The notes under the pieces were generated by a model, which saw nothing but the letters and a program-made list of their open reading frames with translations, was not told where the DNA came from and did no database searches. Of a DNA stretch of 60,440 bases, positions 3,131 through 46,660 are shown in pieces (within the stretch, counting starts at the first letter, position 1; each line of letters starts with the position of its first letter). Made by a program: the position numbers and the translations under genes. The stretch comes from Candidatus Zhuqueibacterota bacterium (GTDB lineage: Bacteria > Zhuqueibacterota > Zhuqueibacteria > Oceanimicrobiales > Oceanimicrobiaceae): the NCBI GenBank assembly GCA_029262055.1, contig JAJDAD010000066.1, positions 1 through 60,440 of the forward strand. The letters are read 5' to 3'.

Positions 3131-3349
3131 ATGGCCGTAGAAAAAACCAACGCTTCTTCCAGCCTGGTTGAAGTTATTGACAGGATTCTTGACAAAGGTA
3201 TCGTCATCGATGCCTGGGCAAGAGTATCCCTGGTGGGTATTGAGCTTCTCGCGATTGAAGCTCGTGTCGTCGTCGCTTCGGTTGAGACATACTTGAAGTA
3301 TGCGGAAGCCATCGGCTTGACCGCCAACGCTGCAACCCCGACTGCATAG
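3131..3349 (+). CDS. gvpA: Gas vesicle structural protein GvpA
   Basis: A 72-residue protein matching the main gas vesicle shell subunit. It has the conserved amphipathic core in order: [19 protein letters not shown] (helix 1 and first strand), [11 protein letters not shown] (second strand), then [20 protein letters not shown] (second helix). The alanine-rich C-terminal tail is short, as in canonical GvpA. ATG at 3131 is chosen over an upstream in-frame GTG (3122) because AAAGGAGG at 3115-3122 sits 8 bases before this ATG and overlaps the GTG. GvpA polymerises into the ribbed, gas-permeable protein wall. It is separated from the rest of the cluster by about 840 bases containing a transposase remnant, so it may be transcribed largely on its own, as expected for a highly expressed shell protein. 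Confidence 0.96.
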
Positions 3350-3615
3350 TCTTGGGTCACAACTAAGTTTGGAAGCCTTTGCCATGATATCCTTGAACAA
3401 TGGACGGTTCTGCCAAGTCCCGGTGCAAAGCATATCCTGCCACAGGGTTCCGACTTTTTAACTGGGGGAACAATTTGCTTGAACCATAACGGAAGTTGTT
3501 TGGATGGGTTTTTATTGTGGATTATGCACACCTTGACCTATGCTTGAGACTCTTTTCCTGGGACCGGTTCAGAAAAATCAACGCAGCGCTCAGACTGCAT
3601 AAAGCGCTACATTCG

Positions 3616-3681
3616 TTCTACTTCTACTTCTACTTCTACTTCTACTTCTACCTCTACCTCTACCTCTACCTCTACCTCCAC
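3616..3681 (+). repeat. Hexanucleotide tandem repeat (TTCTAC)6(CTCTAC)4CTCCAC
   Basis: Six perfect TTCTAC units (3616-3651), four CTCTAC units (3652-3675) and one CTCCAC (3676-3681) form an 11-unit, 66-base pyrimidine-rich microsatellite on this strand, downstream of gvpA. The clean switch between two unit types suggests expansion by replication slippage. A frame running through it would encode a (Phe/Leu-Tyr)n stretch, but I see no gene there. Confidence 0.95.
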
Positions 3682-3713
3682 ACATCACCGTTAGCTAAAC
3701 GCATGATGCCAAA

Positions 3714-4160
3714 ATGGCCAGAGAATTGAATCTGCCAGTGGGCAGTTTTGTTGGTATCGACCGTGGCTACAATGATCTCTGCCTGTTTAAGCCTTTTACC
3801 GAAAATAACATAAGATTTGTAACCAGAAAAAAACCAAACGTCAAATCAATCCCAAGGTGTGGAAACAGAAACTGGCGTTCTCTTTGACGAAATCATTGAA
3901 TTCACAGGTTACAACTCAATACGAAAATATCTAAATCAACACCGTCTGATTCACTACCATATGAACCAGTAGGAATGCTGTCGTGACCCAAATCTGGAGT
4001 ACCGTTATCGCTCATCTGCTAACCAGTTTCTGCAATTTCCCAATTCAAACGATAGTCAGACTCAGCCTAATAGATCTCTTCGAGAGAAGACCGCTCACTG
4101 ATCTAATCGAGTTCAACATATTTAAGCCGCCTCGAACTGCACGGGGCTATCAATTGCCAT
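3714..4160 (+). pseudogene. Degenerate IS4-family transposase remnant
   Basis: Frame 3 from ATG 3714 reads ARELNLPVGSFVGIDRGYND then RFVTRKKPN, which matches the DDE-region second Asp block of IS4-family transposases (GS..v.DRGYnD....F..lt...i.FVTR.K). After a frameshift near the A-rich stretch at about 3827-3833, frame 1 continues with VLFDEIIEFTGYNS and RLIHYH, again typical of the family, and ends in a stop (TAG) at about 3970. Beyond that, IDLFERRPLTDLIE in another frame resembles the transposase C terminus (slfdktPl..l). The N-terminal half and the catalytic Glu region are missing, and I found no terminal inverted repeats. It is a dead fragment lying between gvpA and the rest of the gvp cluster. 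Confidence 0.75.
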
Positions 4161-4188
4161 TCTTAACCGGACACTAATGGTGTAAGTT

Positions 4189-4824
4189 ATGGAAGTAGTG
4201 GAAAGCATGCAAAAGTTGACGCAAGAGATTATCGCTTCTTATGATGCCAGAATAGCCAGCATTGAGGAAATTGTCGCGACGACGTATGAGACCCTGGGCG
4301 ACTTCAGGAAACGACGTATGGAAATGAAGGAAAGGCTGAGAGAGACTTTAGCAAGTGAAAAATCCTTACGCAGAAAAGACTTTGATCACATGGTGGAAAG
4401 GTTTGTGGAGGTCCAGAGTAAGAAGGAAAACGACGTGCGAAACTCTATAAGGAGTTATGTTCGCGACCAAAAGACTTTGGTTAAGGAACTGGGAGAAATG
4501 ACGACGCTTCGCGATAACAGCAATGGCAATGGCCACACCTTCGATCTAAAGACACTCCGCCAACGCATTTCCGAAATCAAAACCAGACAGCAGAAACAGG
4601 AAGATGCCATAAGCAGGCTCTTAAGGGACTACCTCAAAGAGGAGGAGAGAATATCCGATAAGTTCAGTCAACTTATTTCGAACTGTGACTCCCTGAGAAT
4701 TAAAGACATTCAGGAAACGATGGAAAGCCTGTGCTGCACTGTCGTTTCTGCCCCACATAGCTTTGAAAGAAGATCACCAGACCGATTAAACAATAAAGAG
4801 GAGAACCAGGTATGTCAAATCTAG
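4189..4824 (+). CDS. Coiled-coil protein of the gas vesicle cluster
   Basis: A 211-residue, highly charged and almost entirely helical protein with no signal peptide and no recognised domain. Residues about 1-115 (IASYDARIASIEEIVATTYE onward) and 120-180 (LRQRISEIKTRQQKQED) are rich in Lys, Glu and Arg with heptad-like hydrophobics, indicating long coiled coils. It overlaps the start of the next coiled-coil gene by 13 bases and is co-directional with all gvp genes. Its place next to gvpA and its helical composition suggest an accessory wall-binding role like GvpC, but no clear GvpC repeat is present; this is inference. No good ribosome site precedes ATG 4189. ATG 4207 (seventh codon) is an alternative start. 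Confidence 0.75.
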   Translation: MEVVESMQKLTQEIIASYDARIASIEEIVATTYETLGDFRKRRMEMKERLRETLASEKSLRRKDFDHMVERFVEVQSKKENDVRNSIRSYVRDQKTLVKELGEMTTLRDNSNGNGHTFDLKTLRQRISEIKTRQQKQEDAISRLLRDYLKEEERISDKFSQLISNCDSLRIKDIQETMESLCCTVVSAPHSFERRSPDRLNNKEENQVCQI

Positions 4825-5864
4825 ATGAAATGAAAGACCTATGCGAGAACATTGCAGACTCCTTCACTACGCGCGTCAATCTTGTTGAAGACCTGACCAA
4901 AGATACAGTAGAAATGTTGCAGGGCTTCAACAAGGAACACCAGGAAATGGGCAAAGAACTGCGGGATTCTCTTGCCAGGGAAACATCTGAAAGGCTGGCT
5001 AAAAGCAAGGAACTCCGTTCTTCTCTCGCAAAGGAAGTAGCCGAACGAAGAGATTCAGTGACGGCAATGTTGTTTGAGATGCACCGGTCACATGAAGAAA
5101 TGGGCAATCAGTTGAAGTCCTTCCTCGCAGATGAAACCACCAAACTGAAGGCTATGGGCAAAGAGCTGCGCTCTTTTCTCGCAGATGAAACAGCCGAACG
5201 CAAGGATTCGGTGGCGGCAATGTTGTCTGGGATGCACCAGTCGCATGAAGAAATGAGCAAACAGTTGAAATCCTTCCTTGCAAATGAAACCGCCAAACTA
5301 AAGGCCATGGGCAATGAGCTACGTTCTTCTCTTGCAAACGACACTTCCGAACGCAAGGAATCGGTGGCGGCAATGTTGTCAGAGATGCACAAGTCACATG
5401 AAGAAATGAGCAAACACTTGCAGTCCTTTCTCGCAGATGAGACGTCCAAACGAAAGGCCATGGGCAAAGAGTTGAAGAAAGAGTTGCATGAATATCATGT
5501 TGAGTTGGGTTCCTCTGTGGCTAAAATGATAGCTGAGTTACATGAGACGCATAGAAATTTGGCAGAAGTCTGGCGCAAGCTAACAGAGACGATGGCCCGG
5601 CGCAGAGGACAGCAAAGCCAGAAGATGAGCAGAACAGCACAAAAAAAAAGTAAGCTCACAGCATCAAATGACGTGAAAACAAAAATAATCTCGGCGTTAG
5701 GCCACAATGGCAGTGGTTTGAAAATGACGGACCTTGGCAAAGCACTCGGTCAGAGTTGGCAGTCGCTTGGTCCACCGACAAAGGAATTGCTGGCGGAAAA
5801 CAAGATTAAGAAAGTCGAGAATCTGTACTACCTGTCTAATCAATTGACTTTCACAGAAGGATAG
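4812..5864 (+). CDS. Repeat-containing coiled-coil protein, GvpC-like candidate
   Basis: A 350-residue cytoplasmic protein starting at ATG 4812 after a good GAGGAGA site. Residues about 46-198 consist of three tandem 51-residue repeats (153-base DNA period, units starting at 4947, 5100 and 5253) plus a partial fourth at 5406. Each unit contains two 18-residue sub-blocks of type 'MGKELRSFLADETAERK' and a 15-residue block 'SVAAMLSEMHKSHEE'. A basic linker (about 255-285) leads to a C-terminal segment (about 290-345) that looks like a small winged-helix domain. Repeated amphipathic helices on a gas vesicle operon recall GvpC, the outer reinforcing protein, whose cyanobacterial repeats are 33 residues, so this would be a divergent analogue. 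The function is inferred from context and architecture only. Confidence 0.8.
   Translation: MSNLDEMKDLCENIADSFTTRVNLVEDLTKDTVEMLQGFNKEHQEMGKELRDSLARETSERLAKSKELRSSLAKEVAERRDSVTAMLFEMHRSHEEMGNQLKSFLADETTKLKAMGKELRSFLADETAERKDSVAAMLSGMHQSHEEMSKQLKSFLANETAKLKAMGNELRSSLANDTSERKESVAAMLSEMHKSHEEMSKHLQSFLADETSKRKAMGKELKKELHEYHVELGSSVAKMIAELHETHRNLAEVWRKLTETMARRRGQQSQKMSRTAQKKSKLTASNDVKTKIISALGHNGSGLKMTDLGKALGQSWQSLGPPTKELLAENKIKKVENLYYLSNQLTFTEG
4947..5477 (+). repeat. 153-base tandem coding repeat (three full units, one partial)
   Basis: Units begin at ATG 4947, 5100 and 5253 with identical 153-base spacing, and a partial unit runs from 5406. Units two and three are the most alike at DNA level (for example CGCAAGGA.TCGGTGGCGGC in both), showing recent duplication. 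The first unit is more diverged. Confidence 0.9.
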
Positions 5865-5870
5865 CGCATA

Positions 5871-6272
5871 ATGGCCACGCAATTCTCAAAAGCCGGTACA
5901 GCCTCGTCCCCTGCTCAAAAACGAGGCGCAAAAAAAGCAAAGGTACAAGAAGGCACGCTTGTCATAGACTGCGCCTTTTGCCGTGGCCGTGGCACGGATC
6001 CGTTTGCTCTGCTATCGCCCAAAGCATTGTGCCAGGTCTGCGGTGGCAGCGGCAAAACTGAAGTTCAAGAGCCTCATGCCGCCTGTGCTTTTTGCCAGGG
6101 CACAGGCGTGCATCCGAGGAACCGGCTTAGCTGCCCGGCTTGTCAAGGAAAAGGCAACATACATTACCATGCAACAAATAAGAGGTGTCCGGGATGCATG
6201 GGGACCGGCACCACGGTTGAAAGTAAACTGGTTTGCTTGATTTGCCAAGGCACCGGATTAGCAAGACAATGA
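5871..6272 (+). CDS. DnaJ-type zinc-finger protein with six CxxCxGxG motifs
   Basis: A 133-residue protein made almost entirely of a DnaJ/Hsp40 cysteine-rich domain. The motifs start at C34 (CAFCRGRG), C54 (CQVCGGSG), C72 (CAFCQGTG), C88 (CPACQGKG), C106 (CPGCMGTG) and C122 (CLICQGTG). DnaJ itself has four such motifs binding two zinc ions, so six would allow a third zinc site. There is no J domain and no substrate-binding C-terminal domain. The gene starts 6 bases after the repeat protein and lies in the gvp operon, where a J domain appears fused to a GvpF/L protein about 2 kb downstream. A chaperone or scaffold role in keeping the very hydrophobic GvpA soluble is inferred. The zinc-finger assignment is firm. 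Confidence 0.88.
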   Translation: MATQFSKAGTASSPAQKRGAKKAKVQEGTLVIDCAFCRGRGTDPFALLSPKALCQVCGGSGKTEVQEPHAACAFCQGTGVHPRNRLSCPACQGKGNIHYHATNKRCPGCMGTGTTVESKLVCLICQGTGLARQ

Positions 6273-6344
6273 CAGTGAAACTAAAATGACAACAAAAGTG
6301 TTGTACTGTCATTTGCGCTCACAAAAGCAACTATGTGAGACCAG

Positions 6345-6668
6345 ATGTCACGCGAATCAGAGATGAACAAGCTGGCTGAGGAAATCGCAAACACGCAAGA
6401 CAAAAGAACCCGGGACCTGGCACGTCTAATAGACGAAACTGCGCGGGAGAGACAGCGAGCCCAGGAAATGTTCGATGACTTCTACAAGCAGCACCTGCAA
6501 ATGAAGTCAGAGCAAGAAGCAGAGCTCAGGCGTCAAACCATGGAACGCAAGAACGAGGTGTCCGAAATGCGCGCAGGTTTTAGAACTGAGCTTCATGCCG
6601 TGAGTCTTGAATGGAAAAAGTTGTCGCAGCGGATGCGTGGGCTCAGACAGAAGAACAAACGAAAATAG
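6345..6668 (+). CDS. Small coiled-coil protein of the gas vesicle cluster
   Basis: A 107-residue charged, all-helical protein (about one third Arg, Lys or Glu) without a signal peptide. Its C-terminal half (ERKNEVSEMRAGFRTELH then EWKKLSQRM) resembles the ERKD-S-AAML-EMH blocks and the final WRKLTE segment of the repeat protein at 4812-5864, suggesting the two share ancestry. It sits between the zinc-finger gene and gvpN. ATG 6345 is used; ATG 6363 is a possible alternative and neither has a strong ribosome site. A wall-accessory or assembly role is inferred from context. Confidence 0.72.
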   Translation: MSRESEMNKLAEEIANTQDKRTRDLARLIDETARERQRAQEMFDDFYKQHLQMKSEQEAELRRQTMERKNEVSEMRAGFRTELHAVSLEWKKLSQRMRGLRQKNKRK

Positions 6669-6773
6669 GTCTACTTCGGTAGAGTAAAATCTTGCGGCCT
6701 GCCGGACGGGACTAATCCACCGCAGTAGCAATAGATAACAAAGGATTGTTAACATCAATATCAAGGAGGCTCC

Positions 6774-7745
6774 ATGCTAGACCAGGATCATTTAGTCGTA
6801 CTGAAACCCACGGCTCAAAAGAATTTTGTTGAGTCACCTCATATCAAGTCTCTGACCACGCGAGGCTTGGCTTATTTGGAATCCGGGTTTCCCCTTCATT
6901 TCCGCGGGCCGGCCGGATCCGGTAAAACCACGCTGGCTCTGCACATTGCGAGTGTGTTGGGGCGTCCGGTCATGCTTCTTCATGGCGACGACGAGTTTGG
7001 ATCTTCGGATCTGGTAGGGGGGCAGTACGGATATCGTTCTCGAAAAGTGGTGGACAACTTTATCCATTCCGTCCTGAAAACCGAGGAAGACCATGTGCGA
7101 AGATGGGTGGATAATCGTCTCACAGTTGCCTGCAAATATGGCTTTACGCTCGTCTATGATGAATTCAGCCGGTCCAGGCCGGAGGCAAACAATATTCTTT
7201 TGTCCGTTCTCGAAGAAAGAATACTAACGCTGCCGCCAGTCCGAGACGGTGAGGATTACCTGTTCGTGCATGAAGATTTTAAAGCCATTTTTACCAGTAA
7301 TCCGGAAGAATACGCCGGCGTCCACAAGACGCAAGACGCCTTGCAAGATCGCATGATAAGCATCGATTTGGATTATATGGACAAAGAGACGGAGGTCGCA
7401 ATCACCCAGGCGAAGTCCGGTATCTCCAAATCTGGTGCAGGAAAAATTACAGAAATTGTACGAGACTTTCGGGAGCAGTCGGAAGCGCACACCCAACCAA
7501 CATTACGAGCCAGCATTATGATCGCCAAAGCCTGTAACCAGCAGAAGGCCAGGATTTCGTGCGACAACCCGGTCTTCAGGCAAACCTGTTTAGATGTCCT
7601 GGCGCCTGGCCGGATCAAGAATGGCGAAATTGCTCTAAAGCAAGAAAGGCACGCGCTCATCGATGAATTGATTGGCAAGTACTGCAATGGTAAAATGCCT
7701 GTCAGTGCGAAGTCAAGGGGACCACTACCAAAGGTAGTAGTTTGA
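6774..7745 (+). CDS. gvpN: Gas vesicle protein GvpN, MoxR-type AAA ATPase
   Basis: 323 residues, the usual GvpN length. A Walker A motif GPAGSGKTTL lies at about residue 45, a Walker B-like segment LVYDEFSRSRPE at about 125, and a sensor-1 stretch AIFTSNPEEYAG at about 170, all hallmarks of the GvpN/MoxR family. GvpN is needed for normal vesicle growth, probably as an ATP-driven chaperone or remodelling factor acting on the wall proteins. The ATG is preceded by AAGGAGG at 6763-6769, a strong ribosome site. It is followed 29 bases later by a small unknown gene. Confidence 0.95.
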   Translation: MLDQDHLVVLKPTAQKNFVESPHIKSLTTRGLAYLESGFPLHFRGPAGSGKTTLALHIASVLGRPVMLLHGDDEFGSSDLVGGQYGYRSRKVVDNFIHSVLKTEEDHVRRWVDNRLTVACKYGFTLVYDEFSRSRPEANNILLSVLEERILTLPPVRDGEDYLFVHEDFKAIFTSNPEEYAGVHKTQDALQDRMISIDLDYMDKETEVAITQAKSGISKSGAGKITEIVRDFREQSEAHTQPTLRASIMIAKACNQQKARISCDNPVFRQTCLDVLAPGRIKNGEIALKQERHALIDELIGKYCNGKMPVSAKSRGPLPKVVV

Positions 7746-7774
7746 TTTGAATTAATCCCGAGGAGCTCATCCAA

Positions 7775-8062
7775 ATGCCGAAGACATTCAGAGATATCAA
7801 AACCATTCGCAGTGTCAGGGTGAAGTGTGGCCCAATTAAAGACGCCTCCAGATTCCTGGAGCTACATGGTCTGGCGAAAGAAAAACAGCGCCTGGAAAAA
7901 GAAGGAGAAATTTGGCAGGTCAAGGTCAACCAGGCTAAGAAACGAGTCCGGGAAATAGAAGTCCAAATGCGCGCCATCGAGAAGACAGATGGAATTACCA
8001 AAATCAAACAAGAAACGTTTGGACCTTCGTCGAAATGGAAAGAAATGGATATCAGCTATTAA
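7775..8062 (+). CDS. Small uncharacterised gas vesicle cluster protein
   Basis: A 95-residue basic protein. The first about 35 residues (FRDIKTIRSVRVKCGPIKDA) look like a short beta-strand region and residues 36-75 form a Lys/Glu-rich helix (EKQRLEKEGEIWQVKVNQAKK) that may be a coiled coil. There is no signal peptide and no family I recognise with confidence. It has an AGGAG site about 10 bases ahead of ATG 7775 and lies between gvpN and a gvpF/L gene in a tight operon, so it is very likely expressed with them. Confidence 0.75.
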   Translation: MPKTFRDIKTIRSVRVKCGPIKDASRFLELHGLAKEKQRLEKEGEIWQVKVNQAKKRVREIEVQMRAIEKTDGITKIKQETFGPSSKWKEMDISY

Positions 8063-8077
8063 TCTCCCGGAGCGAAA

Positions 8078-9088
8078 ATGAGCATTTACATCTATGGCAT
8101 TATCGAGACTAATCAGGCTGAACATTTCGGACCTATTGGAATCGGTGGGCGTGGCGATGCGGTTACCACCCTGCATTTCAAAGACATCGCAGCAGTGGTC
8201 AGCAACCACCCGGTCGTTGAATTTGACCGGTTTGCAGAAAATGAACTAAAGGAGCTTGTGGCTGCTCATCAATTGGTAAATGAAACCGTGATGAAAAGCT
8301 TTGGCGTGGCGCCGCTGAGCTTCGGTAATATCGCGGAGAGTGAGGAAGAGGTCATAAGAATGTTGCAGCATGCTTACATACAATGCAAAACCATGCTCAA
8401 CAAAGTAAAGGAAAAAGTTGAATTGGTTGTGCAGGCCTTTCGCAACAAACAAGATTGGATACAAGAAATTGCCAATACAAACGAACAGATTATCAAACTG
8501 AAGAATGCTCTTGACTCCGGTTCTGAGGCTGACAATCTAATGGCAAGGATTGAAATTGGCAAAGGCATCCATCAAGCCATTTCCTCTAAGGAAAGAGCCT
8601 TTTGCGATGATGTTCTTTCTATACTGAGAAACGGCAGCTGCCACTTTGCTGCCGGCAAATTGCACGGTGAAGACATGATCTTCAACGGCTCCTTTCTGGT
8701 GGACCCCCAAAGCGAATCCGCATTTGATCAAAAGGTTGATCGATTGGGCCATAGATATGAAGGACAGCTTACTTTTAGATATATCGGCCCCCTGCCGCCT
8801 TACAGCTTTGCCAACCTGAAACTCACGTCAAGTGATTTTGAGCTAATTGATGCCGCCAGAAGAATTCTGGTACTTCCCGATAAAGCAACAGTGAGCGAAA
8901 TCAAATCCGCATATCGAACTTTGGCCTGCCAGTACCATCCGGACAAGAGTCATGACAACCCTGAAGCGGAAGAAAAATTCAGACTGGTGACAGAAGCACA
9001 CCAGGTGCTGGAGACCTTTTGTCAAAACTACAAATTCTCTTTCAGCGAAGAAGTTGTAAGGGATACGGTTCTGATCGATGAGGCTTAG
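8078..9088 (+). CDS. GvpF/GvpL-family protein fused to a C-terminal J domain
   Basis: 336 residues. Residues 1 to about 258 are a GvpF/L domain. It opens with SIYIYGIIE, has the AAVVSNHPV segment, a central helical part with MARIEIGKGI, and the closing YIGPLPPYSFANL block typical of the family. Residues about 265-330 are a DnaJ J domain: helix 2 'SEIKSAYRTLACQYHPDKS' carries the diagnostic HPD tripeptide and is followed by helix 3 'EEKFRLVTEAHQVL'. GvpF/L proteins bind GvpA and seed assembly. A J domain normally stimulates Hsp70 ATPase. The fusion would therefore couple vesicle nucleation to Hsp70. A normal GvpF/L ends near residue 260, so the J domain is an addition. The next gene starts 3 bases later. 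Confidence 0.9.
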   Translation: MSIYIYGIIETNQAEHFGPIGIGGRGDAVTTLHFKDIAAVVSNHPVVEFDRFAENELKELVAAHQLVNETVMKSFGVAPLSFGNIAESEEEVIRMLQHAYIQCKTMLNKVKEKVELVVQAFRNKQDWIQEIANTNEQIIKLKNALDSGSEADNLMARIEIGKGIHQAISSKERAFCDDVLSILRNGSCHFAAGKLHGEDMIFNGSFLVDPQSESAFDQKVDRLGHRYEGQLTFRYIGPLPPYSFANLKLTSSDFELIDAARRILVLPDKATVSEIKSAYRTLACQYHPDKSHDNPEAEEKFRLVTEAHQVLETFCQNYKFSFSEEVVRDTVLIDEA

Positions 9089-9091
9089 GAA

Positions 9092-9862
9092 ATGAGAAAG
9101 ACGGGTAAGTACATTTACTGTGTTACTGATGCGGGCAACAAGCCGGACTTCACTTCCGGGAGTATCGGCAAGACGCCTTCGCAAGTGTTTGGTATTCACT
9201 ATAACTCTATTGCGGCAGTGGTCAGCGACTCTCCCGTCGTGAGTTATTCCCTGAAAAGCGAAAATTACCTGGCACACCAGCGCGTGGTTGAGGAGGCGAT
9301 GGCAAAGAATCTAACTGCGCTGCCCGTACGTTTTTGCACCATCGCCAGAGATGAGGCCAGCGTGCGGACAATCTTGGAAAAAAGATATGATGAGTTTCAC
9401 GAAAACTTGAGCGCCATGAAGGGAAAACTGGAATTGGGTCTGAAAGTGTTTTGGAATGATGAAGTCGCATACCCCGAAATCCTTCGTGAGAATGACAACA
9501 TCAAAAAGATGAGGGATCGAATCGTTTCGCAGCCACAGGAAAATACTTATTTCGAAAGAATTGAAATCGGGAAATTGGTGGAAATTGCCCTCCAGGAAAA
9601 GCGGCAGCGGGAAGAAGAAGAAATCTTGAGCATGTTCCATCATCTTTACCTCGACCACCGGACTAACAGGATTATCGGTGACAGGATGATCGTTAACGTT
9701 GCTTTTTTGGTAGATGAGAAACAGGAAAAGTTGGTTGATGAGGCGGTAGAGAAGCTGGCAAAAGCAAATGATGGACGGTTAAAACTTAGTTACGTTGGCC
9801 CGATTGCTCCCTACAATTTCATCGAAGTGACCATCGATGTGACAGAGTTGGGGCTCAATTAA
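9092..9862 (+). CDS. Gas vesicle protein GvpF/GvpL
   Basis: 256 residues, standard for GvpF/L. It begins KYIYCVTDAG, contains IAAVVSDSPVVSY, then LPVRFCTIARD and FERIEIGKLVE, and ends YVGPIAPYNFIEVTI, all family landmarks. No extra domain. It is the second of three paralogues in the operon, lying 3 bases after the J-domain fusion and 17 bases before gvpG. GvpF/L members bind GvpA monomers and help initiate or chaperone wall assembly. I do not split F from L because the sequence alone does not decide it. Confidence 0.93.
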   Translation: MRKTGKYIYCVTDAGNKPDFTSGSIGKTPSQVFGIHYNSIAAVVSDSPVVSYSLKSENYLAHQRVVEEAMAKNLTALPVRFCTIARDEASVRTILEKRYDEFHENLSAMKGKLELGLKVFWNDEVAYPEILRENDNIKKMRDRIVSQPQENTYFERIEIGKLVEIALQEKRQREEEEILSMFHHLYLDHRTNRIIGDRMIVNVAFLVDEKQEKLVDEAVEKLAKANDGRLKLSYVGPIAPYNFIEVTIDVTELGLN

Positions 9863-9879
9863 TCTCTGAGATAAGACGT

Positions 9880-10125
9880 ATGGCTTTCCTGCTTGATGAT
9901 ATAATAGCTTTGCCCTTCTCTGGTGTGTGGGAGATTGTCAAAGAGCTGCACAAATATGTGGACAGAGAGCTGAATGACAAAGAAACCTGGCAAAGAAAGC
10001 TGTTGGAGCTACAACTGAAATATGAGCTGAACGAAATCGATGAAGATGAATATAAGGTGCGGGAAGAAGAAATAGTAGAAAAAATCACCGCCATACAGGA
10101 AAGCGAGGGAGAAACGGTAGAGTAA
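9880..10125 (+). CDS. gvpG: Gas vesicle protein GvpG
   Basis: An 81-residue, strongly acidic helical protein, the size of GvpG. The first 25 residues (AFLLDDIIALPFSGVWEIVK) match the GvpG N-terminal signature, and the remaining charged helix (ERQ/KWQRKLLELQLKYELNE type) contains 'EIDEDEYKVREEEI', the usual GvpG C-terminal block. GvpG interacts with GvpF/L and GvpA during nucleation. It sits between two gvpF/L genes, the normal arrangement in bacterial clusters. Confidence 0.9.
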   Translation: MAFLLDDIIALPFSGVWEIVKELHKYVDRELNDKETWQRKLLELQLKYELNEIDEDEYKVREEEIVEKITAIQESEGETVE

Positions 10126-10178
10126 GATCAGTCAATGATTCCTGGCCATAAAAGAAATCATTCAACTAGGCAGATTCC

Positions 10179-11012
10179 ATGACACGTAATTCTGGCAACA
10201 ACAATAGGGGCATTTACCTTTATTGCGTTACAGAAGCGACAAACTCACTCCCTCCACTCCGAGGCATAGATGACAACTTTACGACTTTTCAAATAAAAAC
10301 TAAGCCACTCGCCGCATTGGTAAGCGAAGTGCCGTTAGATGCCTTTACCGGCCGGACTTTCCGCACTAAATTGCGTGACTTGTCCTGGGCAGAATCAAAA
10401 TTAAGAGCTCACGAAGCATGTGTGCGAGCGGCAAAAGACAGCGGCTCGGTCCTGCCTATGCGGTTTGCTACCATTTTCTCATCGGAAACCGAACTAAAAG
10501 AATGGCTTGAACAAACTGAGAATCGTTTGACCACGCTGCTACAGTATTTTCAACACAAAGAAGAGTGGGGCGTGCAAATCATTTGTCACAAAAAGGAATA
10601 TCTGTCACAGATTCGCCATGTGCAAAACCCGGAAATTAAAGCAATCGATGCGCAGCTCGTTAACCAGACTCCGGGACAGGCCTTCTTCTTGACCAAGAAA
10701 AAAGAACAAAAACTCGATGCCCTGCGGGAGTCGATTTTGACCGAGGCCTGTCAAGAACTGAATTCACAATTGGACCGAATCGCAATAAAAAAAGTCGACC
10801 TGGATGTATCCAGATCCGGTGAATCGCAAGATGAGCAACAGCTTGTTCTCAATACTTCTTTGCTGATTGAAGAGACTTCGGTTGGTCGTCTTCAGGATAT
10901 GGTGGGTTCTTTCAACGAAGCACCAGCAGTCAGAGGTTTGAGGGCAAGATATACAGGGCCCTGGTCACCATATAATTTTGTAAGCGCGTTGCAGCCGTCC
11001 GATGTACTGTGA
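10179..11012 (+). CDS. Gas vesicle protein GvpF/GvpL (third paralogue)
   Basis: 277 residues. GIYLYCVTEA at the N terminus, LAALVSEVPLDAF, VLPMRFATIFSSE and the closing RYTGPWSPYNFVSAL mark the GvpF/L family. The middle is more diverged than in the two upstream paralogues and lacks their IEIGK motif, having FFLTKKKEQKLDAL instead. Its 3' end overlaps the following gvpA-family gene by 11 bases, implying translational coupling. Three F/L proteins in one operon suggests specialised subunits of the assembly complex. Confidence 0.92.
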   Translation: MTRNSGNNNRGIYLYCVTEATNSLPPLRGIDDNFTTFQIKTKPLAALVSEVPLDAFTGRTFRTKLRDLSWAESKLRAHEACVRAAKDSGSVLPMRFATIFSSETELKEWLEQTENRLTTLLQYFQHKEEWGVQIICHKKEYLSQIRHVQNPEIKAIDAQLVNQTPGQAFFLTKKKEQKLDALRESILTEACQELNSQLDRIAIKKVDLDVSRSGESQDEQQLVLNTSLLIEETSVGRLQDMVGSFNEAPAVRGLRARYTGPWSPYNFVSALQPSDVL

Positions 11013-11235
11013 GCAACAACATGTATCTTTGGGCGATATCCTCGATCGACTGTTGAACAAAGGCGTCGTCATCTCAGGGGAGCTGGTCATTTCGGTGGCT
11101 GATATCGATTTGCTGTTTTTAGATTTACGTCTCTTGATAACCTCGGTTGAGACGGCAATACAAATGAACTGTCCGACGGTTCGTGAAATGACAGGAAGCC
11201 ATCCTTTCATGGGGGAAAAAAGCAAGGAGCCTTAG
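11002..11235 (+). CDS. GvpA-family minor gas vesicle protein (GvpJ/M/S type)
   Basis: 77 residues. The core SLGDILDRLLNKGVVISGEL, VISVADIDLLFLDLRLLITSVETA is the GvpA fold, but the second strand carries Asp (VADIDLL) where the shell protein has VGIELL. This is the pattern of the minor J/M/S proteins, which nucleate vesicles or form the tips. ATG 11002 lies inside the end of the preceding gvpF/L gene; the upstream gene supplies ribosomes by coupling. The C-terminal tail (about 55-77) is short and not conserved. The next gene starts 1 base after its stop. Confidence 0.88.
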   Translation: MYCEQQHVSLGDILDRLLNKGVVISGELVISVADIDLLFLDLRLLITSVETAIQMNCPTVREMTGSHPFMGEKSKEP

Positions 11236-11236
11236 T

Positions 11237-11533
11237 GTGCAAGAACAAATTACACATGGAATTCAGGCAACAAACCTGGCGGACATTTTGGAGCGTGTGC
11301 TCGACAAAGGGATTGTCATCGCCGGCGACATTAAGATCCAATTGGCGGATGTAGAACTCCTGAATATCAAAATTAGACTTCTGGTTGCGTCCGTAGACAA
11401 GGCCAAAGAAATGGGCATTAATTGGTGGGAGAATGACCCCTATCTGTCAACCAGGGCCAATAAACTGGAGGAAGAAAACGCAGAGCTGAGGGGGCAGTTG
11501 GAAAGATGTGCTGCAACAGCAACGGACTCATAA
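11237..11533 (+). CDS. GvpA-family minor gas vesicle protein with coiled-coil tail (GvpJ/M/S type)
   Basis: 98 residues starting at GTG 11237 with AAGGAGC 7 bases ahead. Residues 12-62 hold the GvpA core (LADILERVLDKGIVIAGDI, IQLADVELLNIKIRLLVASV). LADVELL again marks the minor J/M/S class rather than the shell protein. Residues 63-98 add a WWENDPYLS linker and a short Glu/Leu coiled coil (NKLEEENAELRGQLE), an extension typical of S/J-type proteins. It probably acts in vesicle nucleation with the preceding gene. Confidence 0.88.
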   Translation: MQEQITHGIQATNLADILERVLDKGIVIAGDIKIQLADVELLNIKIRLLVASVDKAKEMGINWWENDPYLSTRANKLEEENAELRGQLERCAATATDS

Positions 11534-11549
11534 AAGACAGGAGAGCACC

Positions 11550-12074
11550 ATGACTGGAAAAGACAAAAAGAATGAGAAAGAGCCTCAGATAAATATCGAC
11601 CTCGGTCTGGGAGGATTGTTCCAAGGCATTGGCAGTATCGTTGATTTGGTTTCCGAAATGGCGGAGAAAGGACAGTCGACCGTTGAAAAAACACAAGAAT
11701 TTTCCGGCGAAGGCGCCTTAAAGGATTTGAAGGGTGTCTATGGCTTTTCAGTAAAAATGGGCGCCGGCGGGAATCCCGAAGTGCAACCCTTTGGCAATGT
11801 CAAAACCAGTCCCAGCGGTCCGGTCGTGGATGAGATGCGTGAGCCCATGACCGATGTCTTCGATGAAAAGACAACGATCCAGGTCATTGTAGAAATGCCG
11901 GGTGTGCAGAAAAAAGATGTCACAGTAGATTTGCAGGACGATGTACTTACTGTCAGTGCAAAAAATGCCAAGAGGAAGTATCAAAAAGAGATTGTACTTC
12001 CATCCAAAATAAAACCTGATTCTTTGTCTTACTCATTCAAGAACGCGATTCTTGAAATCAAACTCGATAAGTAA
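11550..12074 (+). CDS. Hsp20/GvpH-like small heat-shock protein
   Basis: 174 residues from ATG 11550, chosen because AGGAGA lies 7 bases ahead; the frame is open further upstream but that overlaps the previous gene without a site. The N-terminal NIDLGLGGLFQGIGSIVDLV resembles archaeal and bacterial GvpH. Residues about 95-174 are a compact alpha-crystallin domain (DVFDEKTTIQVIVEMPGVQKK and DDVLTVSA), ending IL-E-IKLDK. GvpH-type proteins act as chaperones or regulators in gas vesicle synthesis. It follows the minor gvpA-type genes by 16 bases and precedes the CDC48 gene. Confidence 0.88.
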   Translation: MTGKDKKNEKEPQINIDLGLGGLFQGIGSIVDLVSEMAEKGQSTVEKTQEFSGEGALKDLKGVYGFSVKMGAGGNPEVQPFGNVKTSPSGPVVDEMREPMTDVFDEKTTIQVIVEMPGVQKKDVTVDLQDDVLTVSAKNAKRKYQKEIVLPSKIKPDSLSYSFKNAILEIKLDK

Positions 12075-12153
12075 CGTGTAGCCGGTCGGGTCTGGATTAA
12101 TCGGATTACTTTCCATGACAAGATCGGCATCTACGTTCCGATAGGAAATAGAT

Positions 12154-14289
12154 GTGAATAAGAATCCTGTTAAATCGTTGCGCGTATCTGAATCACTCCC
12201 TAAGGATGTGGGACGCGGTATTGCCCGAATCGATCCTGATGACATCAAAGCAATTGGTGCCGAAGTCGGCGACATTGTTGAGATTACGGGCAAGAGAACG
12301 ACGGTGGCAAAGTTAATGCCCACCTATGTAGACAACCGCAGCAAACGTCTCGTCCAAATGGATGGTCTTTTGCGCGAAAATGCAAAAGTCGGCCTGGATG
12401 AACGAGTAAAACTCCGTAAGATTGCCTTCCAGCCGGCAACTAAGATCATATTGGACCCTGAAACGCTTCTCGCCAAAGGACAGAGGGAAAGGGACAGCAG
12501 GTATATCGGCCATTTGATTGAAGGCCTGCCGCTGGTTAGAGAGGATCGGATTCGTGCCAATCTCATCGGTTCCCGCTCCCAGGATTTCACGGTTGTTGAT
12601 ACCTTGCCCAAGGGCGTCGTCATTGTCCAGCACGACACTATCATCCAAATAAAGACCGGTGAGGGTGAACGCAAGGCCAGTACTAAGATTTCCTACGAAG
12701 ATGTTGGTGGACTGCATAAGGAGATCCAACGAATTCGGGAAATGATTGAGTTACCGCTTAAATATCCCCAAATCTTCGATCGACTCGGTATCGACCCACC
12801 AAAAGGTGTGTTGCTCATGGGCCCTCCCGGTACCGGCAAGACTTTGATAGCGCGAGCCGTCGCCAACGAGACCGAGTCCTCATTTTTCGCCGTCAATGGT
12901 CCGGAGGTCATTCATAAATTTTATGGTGAGAGCGAGGCCAAACTGCGTGGAATTTTCGAGCAGGCCAGCAATCAAGCACCCAGCATTATTTTTCTCGATG
13001 AAATTGATTGCATTTCTCCAAAACGGGAGGCCGTGGTCGGAGATGTGGAGAAGCGGGTCGTCGCACAACTTTTGGCTTTGATGGATGGTCTGTCTGAACG
13101 CGGGCAAGTCATCGTCATCGGTGCGACAAATATTCCCAATGCCATCGATCCAGCACTGCGTCGTCCGGGACGTTTTGATCGCGAAATTACCATTGGCACG
13201 CCTGACAAGAAGGGGCGGCTGGAGGTTTTGGAAATTCACACGCGAGGCATGCCCCTGGCAGAGGATGTGGATTTAACTCGACTGGCGGAAATTACGCATG
13301 GATTTGTAGGGGCCGATCTGGCAGCCTTGTGCCGCGAGGCCGCCATGCAAGCTTTGCGTACGTTATTTCCAAAAATTGAGTTCGAAATGGAAACCATACC
13401 CTATGAGACCCTGCTGGAACTGGAAGTAACCATGCATCATTTCCAGGAAGCCTTCAAGGAAGTGGAGCCTTCTGCCACGCGAGAGGTCTTTACTGAGATT
13501 CCAAACGTGAGGTGGTGTCAGGTTGGTGGTTTAGAAGAAATTAAGCAGCAGTTGATCGAAGTCATTGGATGGCCTCTAAAGTATAAAGAACTGTTCGAGT
13601 TTTCAAGAACCATCCCTCCCAAAGGCATTCTGATGTACGGCCCTCCAGGAACCGGCAAGACTCTGCTGGCAAAAGCAGCAGCTACTGAAAGCGAGACAAA
13701 CTTCATTTCCATCAAAGGCCCGGAACTGCTGTCAAAATGGGTCGGCGAGAGCGAGAAGGGCGTTCGGGAACTATTCAAAAAAGCACGACAGGCCTCTCCA
13801 TGCATCCTGTTCTTTGACGAAATAGATGCCATCGCGCCGGTAAGGGGAAGCGGCGGCTCAGACTCTCACGTAAGTGAACGGGTGATAAGCCAGTTACTAA
13901 CGGAAATGGATGGTATCGAAGGGTTACAGGATGTCGTGGTGTTGGCGGCGACCAACCGCCTGGACATCATTGATCCTGCTGTCCGGCGACCAGGCAGATT
14001 TGATTATCTGATTGAACTACCCTACCCGGAATTGGAAACACGCGTAAGAATCTTCGAAGTTCATCTTGAGCAGAAGCCTTTGGCCAGGAACGTAAACATC
14101 AAGGAATTGGCCGAGAAAACGGAAGGCCTGGTCGGCGCTGACATCGAGGCTATCTGCCGAATGGCTTCTATGCTAGCCATTCGTAAAGCAGTGGAATCCG
14201 GGGCAGATGAAACATTTGATCCGAAGAAGTTTAAAATTGACAAACAGTGTTTCAAAGAAGCTTTAGAATATGCGAGTCAAAGGGCTTAG
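12154..14289 (+). CDS. CDC48/VCP-type double AAA+ ATPase
   Basis: 711 residues starting at GTG 12154; the nearby ATG at 12152 runs straight into TGA. Residues 1 to about 175 are the CDC48 N domain (double-psi barrel, [14 protein letters not shown]). D1 has Walker [18 protein letters not shown] at about 223 and Walker [12 protein letters not shown]2 has [17 protein letters not shown] at about 496 and [10 protein letters not shown]. Both rings keep the second-region-of-homology Arg residues (RRPGRFD). CDC48 hexamers unfold or extract proteins. Such genes occur in some gvp clusters and in archaea. Here it may disassemble misassembled vesicle protein or complexes. It overlaps the following Hsp20 gene by 20 bases, tying it to the operon. 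Confidence 0.95.
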
Positions 14290-14776
14290 AGACATAAAAA
14301 CAGCCGGATACCTACGAAAACAGCCCGACAGAGGTGATTTTAGAAGCCAAAGTTCTTTAGAAGCTGCGCAGAAATCCGGATTCACATCGCGAGTTCAGAC
14401 AAACGAGCCCAAAACCTGGGTCTTTTGTCCGAAACCCAAGTTCACCAGATATCAAAAGACGCTTTTGGTTAACCGGGTTCGCGATCCCAATACCGAGGTG
14501 TTTGAGGAAGCCAAATCTGTCATTGTTATCGCCGAACTGCCTGGTGTCCAGAGAGAAGAAGATATTCTACTTCACGTTGAGGGGGATGTTTTTATTCTTG
14601 AAGCGACGAGCACGGTCGCTGCTGGCAATAAGAAGTTTCTAAAGGAAGTTCTTATTCCCTTTCAAATTGACCCGGATAAATTGCACCCTTCACTCAATAA
14701 CGGCATCATGGAAATTGTTTTGTATCCTCTGGTGCGCAGCGATGTCTGCGAAAAAGGCCTGGGTCCCAAAAAATAA
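14270..14776 (+). CDS. Second Hsp20/GvpH-like protein
   Basis: 168 residues. The first about 75 residues are basic and apparently disordered. Residues about 78-155 form an alpha-crystallin-like domain ([46 protein letters not shown]). It is related to the Hsp20 protein encoded just before the CDC48 gene (both have the 'E-PGVQ' turn), so the ATPase gene is bracketed by two small heat-shock genes. The start overlaps the end of the ATPase gene by 20 bases. A later start is possible because the N-terminal region is not conserved. Confidence 0.82.
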
Positions 14777-14974
14777 GACACATAACCTGGATAATTCATG
14801 AATCTGTGTATTGAGCACAAGTATAGCAATACTGTCATTCAGGAGGAATCCTTTTTTGAACAGGTCCCATTGTCTTCGTCGGTTACGGATTTGACCCAAA
14901 AAGATCCCTCCAGAAGCCAAGAAGGTGATTCGTGAATAGTGCAGGACAAATAAAATAGCAGGCGGAGGTAAGAT

Positions 14975-15370
14975 ATGAAGAAAATCAAAGTGCTGGTGGT
15001 AGATGATAATCCTGACATTCTTGACCTTTTCAATAAGGCATTGAACCCCATTGACTATAAGGTGGCCTTGGCACAAAGTGGAGATGAAGCCCTGCATGTC
15101 TTTGAATCGGAAAACCCTGACATTGTTATGTTAGACATCAAAATGCCGAACCTGGACGGAATAGAGACTTTACGACGAATCAAATATTTGGATGAAAAAA
15201 ATCAAAGTGCGGTGATCATGCTGACGGGCTACGGCGAAATCGGCACGGCTCGCGAGGCGATGGCGCTTGGCGCTTACGATTATGTCACCAAACCGGTCGA
15301 TCTGAACTTTATCGATGCTCTCCTCAAAGAGGCTACCAAACAAAAGGTTCGGCCTCCATGCGTCAATTAG
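14975..15370 (+). CDS. Stand-alone CheY-like response regulator receiver
   Basis: 131 residues, only a receiver domain. The acidic pocket D10-D11, phosphoacceptor D54 (VMLDIKMP), T84 (MLTGYG) and K106 (VTKPVD) are all present. There is no DNA-binding output domain and no adjacent histidine kinase. ATG 14975 follows GGCGGAGG. It ends 13 bases into the next gene. Its place in the gas vesicle operon, just before gvpK, suggests a phosphorylation-dependent switch on vesicle production or on its neighbour. That role is inferred. Confidence 0.92.
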   Translation: MKKIKVLVVDDNPDILDLFNKALNPIDYKVALAQSGDEALHVFESENPDIVMLDIKMPNLDGIETLRRIKYLDEKNQSAVIMLTGYGEIGTAREAMALGAYDYVTKPVDLNFIDALLKEATKQKVRPPCVN

Positions 15371-15981
15371 TGTACGTGCCTATCATTCATACGGAAGCGG
15401 ATTTGGGTTCCATGGCGCAGTCTTTTAAGAAGGAATTCAAAAAGAGGTATTCGGACCACCATTATGAATGCCATGTTGATGCTATTGCAACCATGTGGCA
15501 AGGGATCTCTGAAAAGATCATAAAGCCAAATACAGATTGGCAAAAAGTAAGATTGTACCAGGATGGCTTGCCCGTATGTGGTCGTGAAAAAGAAATAGTA
15601 TCTGATTTGGCTCGGAATGGCAGTGTCAATCATGAGTTACTTGTAGACTTGATATCGAGGGGTGCTCATCTTGAAGGGACAGAAGATCGAGCCCTTCTGT
15701 TAAAAGAGTATGACTACTTAAACAGGATTTTCAAAGCAAAGAATCAGGCTGAAAAGAATCGAACCGTTAAGGAATACCAGAAGGTCAGCGACTGGCTATT
15801 GCAGGAACGAGATCGATTCATGGCACAGAGAATCGCTCACACTTTGAAAAGAGACGAAACCGGAATCCTGTTCGTGGGCATGATGCACAAAGTGGACAAA
15901 TACTTGCCCAAAAGCATCGCAGTCAGTTCTGTGATCCATCGTTTGCCATTCAATGAATTCCCGACATTCGTTAGGACATGA
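15358..15981 (+). CDS. Uncharacterised protein of the gas vesicle cluster
   Basis: 207 residues, soluble, no signal peptide. The N terminus (VYVPIIHTEADLGSMA) and the C-terminal block (ERDRFMAQRIAHTLKRDETG then ILFVGMMHKVDKYLP) look conserved. The latter resembles the 'RD..MA..I.....vlvvvGa.H' pattern of TraB/PrgY-type proteins, though the overall match is too weak for an assignment. It overlaps the CheY-like gene by 13 bases, so the two are probably translated together and may act as a pair. gvpK follows within about 10 bases. Confidence 0.8.
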   Translation: MRQLVYVPIIHTEADLGSMAQSFKKEFKKRYSDHHYECHVDAIATMWQGISEKIIKPNTDWQKVRLYQDGLPVCGREKEIVSDLARNGSVNHELLVDLISRGAHLEGTEDRALLLKEYDYLNRIFKAKNQAEKNRTVKEYQKVSDWLLQERDRFMAQRIAHTLKRDETGILFVGMMHKVDKYLPKSIAVSSVIHRLPFNEFPTFVRT

Positions 15982-15988
15982 CCATAAA

Positions 15989-16333
15989 ATGATAAGATGC
16001 GAAGGAATGCCACGCCATGAGGAAGCAGATTTAGAGGGCGATGAGCTCAACTCCTTGCTTGCAGCTTCAGCTCCGAAGATTAACCTGGACCCCGAAAAGG
16101 TTGAACAGGGTTTGGGAAAAATCGTTCTCACTCTGATCGAGCTACTTAGGAAATTGCTTGAGAAGCAGGCGCTTCGTCGCGTCGAAAACGACAGTCTCTC
16201 ACCTGAGGAGGTGGAAAGATTGGGAATTGCCTTGATGCGTTTGGAGAACAAAATGGATGAGCTTAAGGGACACTTTGGTATTGAGGATGAAGAACTGAAC
16301 ATTGATCTCGGTCCCTTGGGTAGACTGATCTAA
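15989..16333 (+). CDS. gvpK: Gas vesicle protein GvpK
   Basis: 114 residues from ATG 15989; an earlier in-frame ATG at 15953 lies inside the preceding gene. The conserved GvpK region starts at INLDPEKVEQGLGKIVLTLI, continues LLRKLLEKQALRRVE and ends EEVERLGIALMRLENKMDEL. The acidic tail (GIEDEELNIDLGPLG) is also family-like. GvpK is an accessory protein needed for full vesicle growth and often closes gvp clusters, as here. The next gene is convergent, so the cluster ends here. Confidence 0.93.
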   Translation: MIRCEGMPRHEEADLEGDELNSLLAASAPKINLDPEKVEQGLGKIVLTLIELLRKLLEKQALRRVENDSLSPEEVERLGIALMRLENKMDELKGHFGIEDEELNIDLGPLGRLI

Positions 16334-46228: not shown

Positions 46229-46660
46229 TGGTACGCCCGGCATGGGCATGAACTAACGGGGTGTAAGTCCCTTATAGGCGAACTCCTGTATCTATTCTAA
46301 GTACAACGACTATTAGCGAAAGGTAACTGCAAAGCCGCGAGGCTTTGCGGGAAGGAAGCCTGCAGCAAAACAGTGAGCCAAAGCCGGCGTTGAGCCGGGC
46401 GTAAATGATGCGGTGGTGCTGCGTCAGTTCAAGTTCCCCAGTCAAGCCTTATCCGGGGAGGTTTGCTCAAGTGCGATGCAGACCGTTTGGTGAACATCCG
46501 TCGGACTCCCGGCAAACCAAGTCCAATCCGCGTAGTCTGCGATCAACTGAGCGGAGCTAAGAACAGGATAACAACCAAATGGTCTCGCATAGCGACTTCT
46601 GGAGCAATCCGGTCGTTGATTAGGCAGAAGTCAGCAATGGTATTGACTCCAGGAGGCGTT
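46229..46660 (+). mobile_element. Group II intron remnant (5' part)
   Basis: TACGCCCGGCATGGGCATGAACTA at 46232 onward and GGTGTAAGTCCC match the start of the intron at 59809-60440. The domain I block GGTAACTGCAAAGCCGCGAGG ... GAAGCCTGCAGCAAAACAGTGAGCC (46322-46380) follows, then GCGTAAATGATGCGGT and a diverged copy ending GGCAGAAGTCAGCA (46623-46636). Reverse transcriptase and domains V/VI are absent. It is a decayed, non-functional fragment. Confidence 0.75.

Follow-up and report, generated by a model that had tools for sequence, protein, structure and literature searches.

Why should a cluster of gas vesicle (gvp) genes carry so many genes for chaperone-type proteins? The question is raised by positions 3131–16333 of a 60,440-nucleotide stretch of DNA from Candidatus Zhuqueibacterota bacterium (assembly GCA_029262055.1, contig JAJDAD010000066.1, positions 1 to 60,440, forward strand), to which we refer as the window. 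Open reading frame calling places 19 genes in this interval, all on the + strand. Pfam and NCBIfam profile searches of the window proteins identify gvpA, gvpN, three gvpF/L, gvpG, two gvpA-family genes of the J/M/S type, and gvpK—GvpA, N, F/L, G, K and J-type genes together being what marks a gas vesicle cluster—and, in the same run, five genes of chaperone type: a stand-alone zinc finger, a GvpF/L protein fused to a J domain (F/L-J), a CDC48, a clear Hsp20, and a weak relative of Hsp20. The answer we favor, at a probability of roughly 0.55, is that this is a gvp cluster of a widespread type that carries a client-dedicated set of chaperones, acting on GvpA-family proteins together with the DnaK of the host.

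The window cluster is of a type found widely among bacteria. Hsp20 followed by CDC48 forms its conserved core, F/L-J is common and often the next gene, and the zinc finger is optional; CDC48 and F/L-J, moreover, diverge in step with gvpN. The chaperone-type genes are listed here; G004 is a genome from the same family and another genus.

5871–6272, +: stand-alone DnaJ-type zinc-finger protein with six CxxCxGxG motifs and no J domain (PF00684, 37.9 bits)
8078–9088, +: GvpF/L fused to a C-terminal J domain, F/L-J (PF06386, 186 bits; PF00226, 62.2 bits)
11553–12074, +: Hsp20, a GvpH-like small heat-shock protein of the alpha-crystallin family (NF041800, 146.5 bits against a cut-off of 140)
12154–14289, +: two-ring AAA ATPase of the CDC48/VAT type, N domain included (TIGR01243, 957.7 bits; cut-off 802.65)
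14270–14776, +: second Hsp20-family protein, with a weak family score (NF041800, 65.4 bits, under the cut-off of 140; PF00011, 16.8 bits, under 20.8) and a 62% identical copy in the same place in G004

Within its own phylum such a cluster is seldom met. GvpK occurs in 2 of 82 genomes, that of the window and G004; of 99 relatives searched for CDC48, only this pair has one over the curated cut-off, and the remaining 97 do not. Within the phylum sample, therefore, unfoldase and gas vesicle genes come together. G004 has matches for 18 of the 19 window genes in the same relative order, orf107 alone going unmatched at E 1e-3. The first-pass annotation had let its case for a chaperone module hang on whether close relatives keep these genes beside gvp, and G004 keeps all five, in the relative order of the window. 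Between the two genomes gvpA is 95% identical, CDC48 84%, the first Hsp20 75%, F/L-J 66%, the second Hsp20 62% and the zinc finger 45%. When window and G004 copies are compared, the two Hsp20 families match each other at 37–40% over 86–87 amino acids. The G004 cluster has in addition a gvpO-like gene and, between Hsp20 and CDC48, an ArsA-like ATPase that the window cluster lacks (both names are our own reading). It also contains two gvpN and two DnaJ-type zinc-finger genes (L003 11404–15842).

Further afield, loci were collected in two ways. One set, found by alignment to GvpN, comprises 80 loci from genome contigs, the best 80 among 302 relatives, and for that reason leans towards the window's own cluster type. 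The other, less biased, began with two phylum samples, each of 345 genomes, from which genomes were picked by GvpK; a match was present in 28 genomes per sample, over the cut-off in 28 of the first and 27 of the second, and 52 regions were fetched from these 56 genomes (G099, G104 and G102 were already covered via other loci, and G682 was under the cut-off). Adding the window, G004 and seven plasmid loci, and dropping two rows as duplicates (L187 of L043, L202 of L050), gave 139 loci, which were annotated with hidden Markov models (HMMs) built here. A CDC48 was called where more than 450 profile positions matched, bearing in mind that some regions end at contig ends; four of the 85 so called are shorter than 640 amino acids, among them one from Nostoc whose match begins at profile position 177 and which has no N domain. 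The coiled-coil models (CC, o107 and o95) may catch unrelated coiled coils, and no main count depends on them.

Two arrangements dominate the annotated loci. In type I the order is gvpA, coiled coils, (zinc finger), gvpN, orf95, Hsp20, (ArsA), CDC48, F/L-J, further F/L, G, O and K. In type II it is a receiver-bearing regulator, Hsp20, CDC48, one or two F/L, a receiver, gvpA, (zinc finger), gvpN, orf95, F/L, G, (ArsA), a J-type gene and K. The window cluster consists of type I genes rearranged, with Hsp20–CDC48–Hsp20 near its 3' end. CDC48 lies directly after Hsp20 in 30 of the 85 cases and after Hsp20–ArsA in 33, together 63 of 85 (gaps under 400 bp); it lies directly before F/L-J in 45 and before another F/L in 20.

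Seventy-two clusters are complete. Among the 38 in the GvpN set, Hsp20 is present in 34, CDC48 in 34, F/L-J in 21, the zinc finger in 14, and all four in 9. Among the 25 in the GvpK set the corresponding figures are 23, 23, 18, 7 and 3, and among the 9 from the window, G004 and the plasmids they are 6, 5, 3, 2 and 2. These counts make Hsp20–CDC48 a near-constant core, F/L-J a frequent companion and the zinc finger an option, with the full set in the minority.

Some of what had been proposed for the locus survives these counts, and some does not. That the chaperone genes are dedicated to gas vesicles finds good genomic support, as far as association with gvp goes, in context, co-occurrence and co-inheritance, and chance is an unlikely source of the gene set since the same genes recur together in other genomes. 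A single five-gene module, however, is not what is found: the four-part set of Hsp20, CDC48, F/L-J and zinc finger is present in only 24 of 139 loci and in 3 of the 25 complete GvpK-set clusters, and a second Hsp20-family gene in 9 of 139. The expectation of one order in all relatives holds for G004 and fails in the wider loci, where CDC48 is directly upstream of F/L-J in the 45 cases mentioned, whereas in the window it is downstream; the survey layouts rule out a fixed five-gene order. Nor is the set well described as a nearly complete Hsp40–small heat-shock protein–unfoldase system, for CDC48 is, to our knowledge, not normally part of the Hsp40–Hsp70 set.

The association of CDC48 with gas vesicles can be gauged without regard to gene order, by scoring CDC48 over its curated cut-off against GvpK in the two 345-genome samples. 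In the first, CDC48 occurs in 25 genomes, 23 of which have GvpK, and in 23 of the 28 GvpK genomes; in the second it again occurs in 25, 19 of which have GvpK, and in 19 of 27 GvpK genomes. Fisher tests give 7e-29 and 4e-20, respectively, uncorrected for kinship. Identity distances across 54 loci point to co-inheritance: the correlations are 0.92 between gvpN and CDC48, 0.81 between gvpN and F/L-J, and 0.91 between CDC48 and F/L-J, and none of 2000 permutations reached as high. In a CDC48 tree—a quick one, built with no mixture model, in which L204 and some unlinked rows form long branches and from which L228 and L255 fell under a 600-residue filter—81 of the 82 gvp-labelled rows, and 13 labelled as unlinked, are separated by a branch (Shimodaira–Hasegawa-like approximate likelihood ratio test, SH-aLRT, 99) from five plasmid-borne haloarchaeal and alphaproteobacterial CDC48s. 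The label 'unlinked' was given, in most cases, on the strength of about 1.5 kb to either side, and of 4 kb for five plasmid loci.

The proteins themselves bear on what the set might do. In F/L-J, the F/L domain (PF06386) spans residues 3–246 and the J domain (PF00226) residues 263–312, with its HPD motif present, as in a class C J-domain protein. The predicted structure is confident (mean predicted local distance difference test, pLDDT, 92.7; predicted template-modelling score 0.82): its F/L part adopts the GvpF fold, matching 6l5d at a template-modelling score of 0.82 on the target, and its J part the J fold, with a best E of 0.001. The survey holds 59 such genes in 59 loci, always with the J domain after the F/L domain; a further J fragment, in L206, starts at a contig edge and adjoins F/L genes. 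In the zinc-finger protein all 12 motif cysteines are invariant across 40 aligned sequences, and the sequence profile is related to DnaJ (1exk, E 1.5e-10). Its model (pLDDT 88.9) finds only weak matches in the PDB, the nearest being BSD2, a Rubisco assembly chaperone (6ekb, E 0.044), and the DnaJ Cys-rich domain (1exk, E 0.13). It shares a DnaJ-type zinc finger with both but has six CxxCxGxG motifs, not the four that define the DnaJ domain. The 58 zinc-finger genes of the survey come from 46 loci; exactly six CxxCxGxG are present in 46 of the genes and six CxxC in 57, and none has a J domain. Class A Hsp40s have J domain, zinc finger and C-terminal client-binding domains on one chain; here, J domain and zinc finger are on separate proteins. 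A full-length DnaK (902.6 bits) is encoded once in the genome, away from this contig, and three more PF00012 matches are partial.

Might these J and zinc-finger parts have been re-purposed purely for binding or scaffolding, so that they no longer work with DnaK? The detachment of the zinc finger from the J domain, its six motifs in place of four, and the loss of HPD from one J domain in 59 all lean that way. Yet HPD is kept in the other 58, and the modeled F/L-J matches J domains that include a DnaK-bound one (5nro, E 0.0074); we regard re-purposing as unlikely. If instead DnaK is still a partner, as we favor, J domain and zinc finger would be acting here on separate proteins.

The CDC48 of the window has an N domain (CDC48_N, 84.2 bits) and two AAA rings, as CDC48/VAT proteins do, with Walker A motifs and aromatic pore loops in both rings; the closest solved structure is VAT (5g4f). 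At least two Walker A motifs occur in 80 of 81 CDC48s in the survey. N domain, two rings and aromatic pore loops are shared with archaeal VAT and eukaryotic p97-Cdc48, from which the window protein differs in being gvp-linked and in two features related to the 20S proteasome. Some CDC48/VAT members end in an HbYX motif for docking to 20S; none of the 81 CDC48s of at least 640 amino acids, the window copy included, has an HbYX-like tail. A proteasome-family search of the genome revealed no 20S-type gene, and its sole match reads, to us, as HslV beside HslU. CDC48 and VAT are known segregases and unfoldases, and this raises an alternative: the set might serve mainly to dismantle vesicles that have collapsed or are surplus, with CDC48 drawing GvpA out of the ribs and Hsp20 and DnaK refolding it for new walls. 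The missing HbYX tail and the lack of a visible 20S-type gene fit this insofar as they favor re-use over degradation by 20S.

Several observations weigh against a chaperone set dedicated to GvpA-family clients, and they are best told together. Zinc finger and F/L-J can each occur alone—22 loci have the first without the second, and 35 the second without the first—so the idea of a split Hsp40 with two obligate halves is weak. Ten of the 72 complete clusters, including two haloarchaeal ones and those of Octadecabacter and Spartinivicinus, are without a CDC48 of more than 450 profile positions; two clusters without a full CDC48 have fragments (L073 and L212), and one (L060) belongs to a genome with CDC48 elsewhere. 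In L073, from Desulfomonilaceae, the two fragments lie between Hsp20 and F/L, reflecting either a broken gene or an assembly error. Some CDC48 genomes have no GvpK match, 2 of 25 in the first sample and 6 of 25 in the second. Two of those six (G557 and G640) have gvpF/L beside CDC48; the flanks read around CDC48 in the other four, and in G336 and G342 of the first sample, contain no gvp gene. The first sample also includes five GvpK genomes (G184, G230, G242, G393 and G443) in which the 6–18 kb fetched around CDC48 show no gvpA-, F/L-, N-, G- or K-like gene; in G230 an ArsA lies about 2.5 kb from CDC48, and the contig of G443 measures just 6.3 kb. The CDC48s of these five and of G342 group with gvp-linked L079 (SH-aLRT 100) inside the gvp-associated part of the tree, suggesting a gene that moved out of the cluster and was retained in the genome. 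The 13 unlinked rows are interspersed with gvp-linked ones, and Hsp20 or ArsA adjoins CDC48 in at least two of the 13 (L274 and L282); gvp linkage thus marks no clean clade. Finally, Halobacterium pNRC200 (L285 3558–6208) has Hsp20 directly before CDC48 far from gvp genes, and so the pairing also exists outside gas vesicle clusters.

That last case favors a different explanation, namely that these are general stress-protection genes that travel with gvp and guard the host against shell-protein overload or heat, with no specific role in the wall. Patchy distribution—the 2 of 82 genomes in the phylum—and the presence of gvp clusters on plasmids are in keeping with it. It sits badly with a J domain joined to F/L in the same way 59 times in 59, with distance correlations of 0.81–0.92, and with gvp genomes having CDC48 even when it has no visible gvp neighbor; we regard this explanation as highly improbable.

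The nearest existing test of a dedicated set comes from Serratia, whose GvpZ has been described as of unknown function. The order of the Serratia gvp cluster matches the type II arrangement as it occurs in the Desulfomonile locus L051: receiver-type regulator, Hsp20, CDC48, F/L, F/L. GvpZ is therefore probably the CDC48 homologue, and GvpH the Hsp20, judging by gene position. The window differs from Serratia in being one merged gene run and in having F/L-J, the zinc finger and a second Hsp20. When gvpH or gvpZ is deleted in Serratia, vesicles are retained, a further point on the debit side; when either is deleted in E. coli, ultrasound signal and opacity are reduced or eliminated (PMC10344784). 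Deletion of gvpC, gvpW or gvpY in E. coli leads to the same loss of signal (PMC10344784), so the effect is not chaperone-specific, and this, too, counts against our answer. Taken as they stand, the gvpH and gvpZ deletions fit a conditional role without being specific for one. The recycling alternative is helped by the formation of Serratia vesicles without gvpH or gvpZ, and hurt by the lowered signal in E. coli, which points to formation of vesicles (PMC10344784); on balance it strikes us as unlikely, if worth keeping in view.

How might a dedicated set operate? GvpF is reported to bind GvpA, and GvpH to prevent aggregation of GvpM (PMC9501494, PMC6107691), and GvpF, possibly with GvpG, has been proposed as a chaperone for GvpA2 (PMC11445434). 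By analogy with GvpF in model organisms, the F/L-type proteins would bind GvpA-family monomers, and the copy with the J domain would bring the cell's own DnaK to the F/L–client complex. The zinc-finger protein and Hsp20 would hold further hydrophobic chains of the GvpA and J types, and CDC48 would pull apart shell protein that has misassembled or aggregated, so that it can be used again and not destroyed, without 20S-linked degradation. Assembly, repair and disassembly of the vesicle wall are each compatible with the gene content, and the set may serve any of them. Taken to its full length, the idea becomes a chaperone machine in pieces—J domain on a client-binding GvpF/L, zinc finger supplied in trans, DnaK borrowed from housekeeping, CDC48 free of a protease—and walls that are actively edited or recycled, not only self-assembled. 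This fuller version is tentative, and we think it possible but somewhat doubtful.

Parts of the arrangement have been noticed before. Operons of gvp genes with ArsA and hsp20 have been reported, and a chaperone role proposed (PMC2963123); they share hsp20 with the window, which has no ArsA, and CDC48 has no occurrence in the accessible text of that paper, where DnaJ was not searched for. An hsp20 near gvp genes was noted in an actinobacterium of a serpentinizing system (PMC7325909). Halobacterium GvpH resembles the window Hsp20 in being a gvp accessory protein and, by the HMM built here, a member of the Hsp20 family; unlike the window, the two haloarchaeal gvp clusters examined have no CDC48, J domain or zinc finger, and in PMC6107691 Cdc48d figures as a column contaminant. 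The plasmid-borne clusters of Methylosinus (pMSC49b) and Methylocella have, like the window, gvpH/Hsp20 and a CDC48-family ATPase beside gvp genes, and no F/L-J or zinc finger was found in them. The accessible parts of PMC4046663 and PMC2405808 describe no DnaJ in a gvp cluster, and the literature searched, as far as its text was accessible and with subscription papers and supplements outside it, yielded no description of a J-domain GvpF/L, a six-motif zinc finger or CDC48 as parts of gvp clusters.

The remaining genes of the cluster are these:

3131–3349, +: gvpA, major shell protein (NF006874, 138.7 bits, over the cut-off; 95% identity to the G004 copy over 63 amino acids)
4189–4824, +: coiled-coil protein 1, at the GvpC position, family CC (39% identity to the G004 copy over 181 amino acids; no family over its cut-off)
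4812–5864, +: coiled-coil protein 2, orf350, GvpC-like by position (3.1 copies of a 153-bp, 51-amino-acid tandem repeat; gvpC_cyan_rpt, 16.5 bits, under the cut-off of 18.8)
6345–6668, +: orf107, small coiled-coil protein (DUF3622, 23.7 bits, just over the cut-off of 22.2; no G004 match at E 1e-3)
6774–7745, +: gvpN, AAA+ ATPase (TIGR02640, 357.6 bits)
7775–8062, +: orf95, coiled coil, the gene after gvpN, apparently in the position of Serratia gvpV (from a family alignment; no NCBIfam family for the window member)
9092–9862, +: gvpF/L 2 (PF06386, 231 bits)
9880–10125, +: gvpG (PF05120, 58 bits)
10179–11012, +: gvpF/L 3, L-like (PF06386, 168 bits; NF045778 GvpL, 106 bits, below the cut-off of 200)
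11002–11235, +: gvpA-family J/M/S type 1 (PF00741, 56.6 bits)
11237–11533, +: gvpA-family J/M/S type 2 (PF00741, 62.6 bits)
14975–15370, +: single-domain response-regulator receiver (PF00072, 103.6 bits)
15358–15981, +: orf207, gvp-associated, with weak TraB/PrgY/gumN similarity (PF01963, 22.0 bits, below the cut-off of 26.8)
15953–16333, +: gvpK (PF05121, 114.4 bits)

Every gene that the first-pass annotation had named is confirmed at its coordinates, the second Hsp20 being weak on family score alone; its list had passed over the two coiled-coil proteins at the GvpC position, orf107, orf95, the receiver protein and orf207. From 4189 to 16333 neighboring genes are −29 to +198 bp apart, and a gap of 839 bp separates gvpA from the rest. 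Inside this gap, at 3616–3675, the hexamer TTCTAC is repeated 10 times and could be a variable spacer element. A strict sigma-54 pattern (at least 9 of 11 positions) was found neither in 100 regions upstream of gvpA nor in 2000 control windows; with so strict a pattern this negative carries little weight, and the idea of a sigma-54 promoter was dropped. Sigma-70 promoter-like sites number 28, against 16.7 in shuffles, and terminator-like sites 13, against 17.3; neither count was used further. The repeat in orf350 lies at 5005–5471, in the usual place of gvpC, and orf350 is a plausible GvpC analogue, though under the cut-off for the GvpC repeat.

The orf95 family is a very divergent coiled coil present in 104 of the 139 loci, usually right after gvpN; it could not be assigned to a named family, the window member having no NCBIfam match and other members scattered weak ones. 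A Serratia gvpV mutant is reported to make small bicones only. The orf207 family is likewise gvp-linked (27 loci in the first survey set), often adjoins CDC48 or the regulator, and has conserved QDGLPVCG-like, RDxxIAxRI-like and GxxH motifs. Little speaks for its being a protease: at E 0.01 TraB is reached by 2 of 19 members, and at E 0.1 no relative appears in the PDB. Elsewhere in the window, a large secreted-type protein with, by eye, a sorting-signal-like C-terminal tail is encoded just upstream of the cluster (4–2091), and Rfam matches to group II intron D1–D4 occur at 59928–60359 and 46331–46435 (117, 59 and 34 bits).

What would a dedicated chaperone set mean for gas vesicles? A review (PMC10903477) names as an open question how an aggregation-prone shell protein is kept soluble and built into a gas-tight wall, and the set supplies concrete candidates for factors that do so. 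It gives a probable identity to an anonymous gene, GvpZ as CDC48, and could explain why deletions of gvpH and gvpZ matter in a foreign host and not in the native one. The parts might also raise the yield of vesicles in engineered hosts. If our answer is right, these would be bacterial CDC48s with an identifiable class of client, and the recurrence of similar chaperone genes beside gvp genes in many bacterial groups suggests that a very sticky shell protein needs chaperones of its own.

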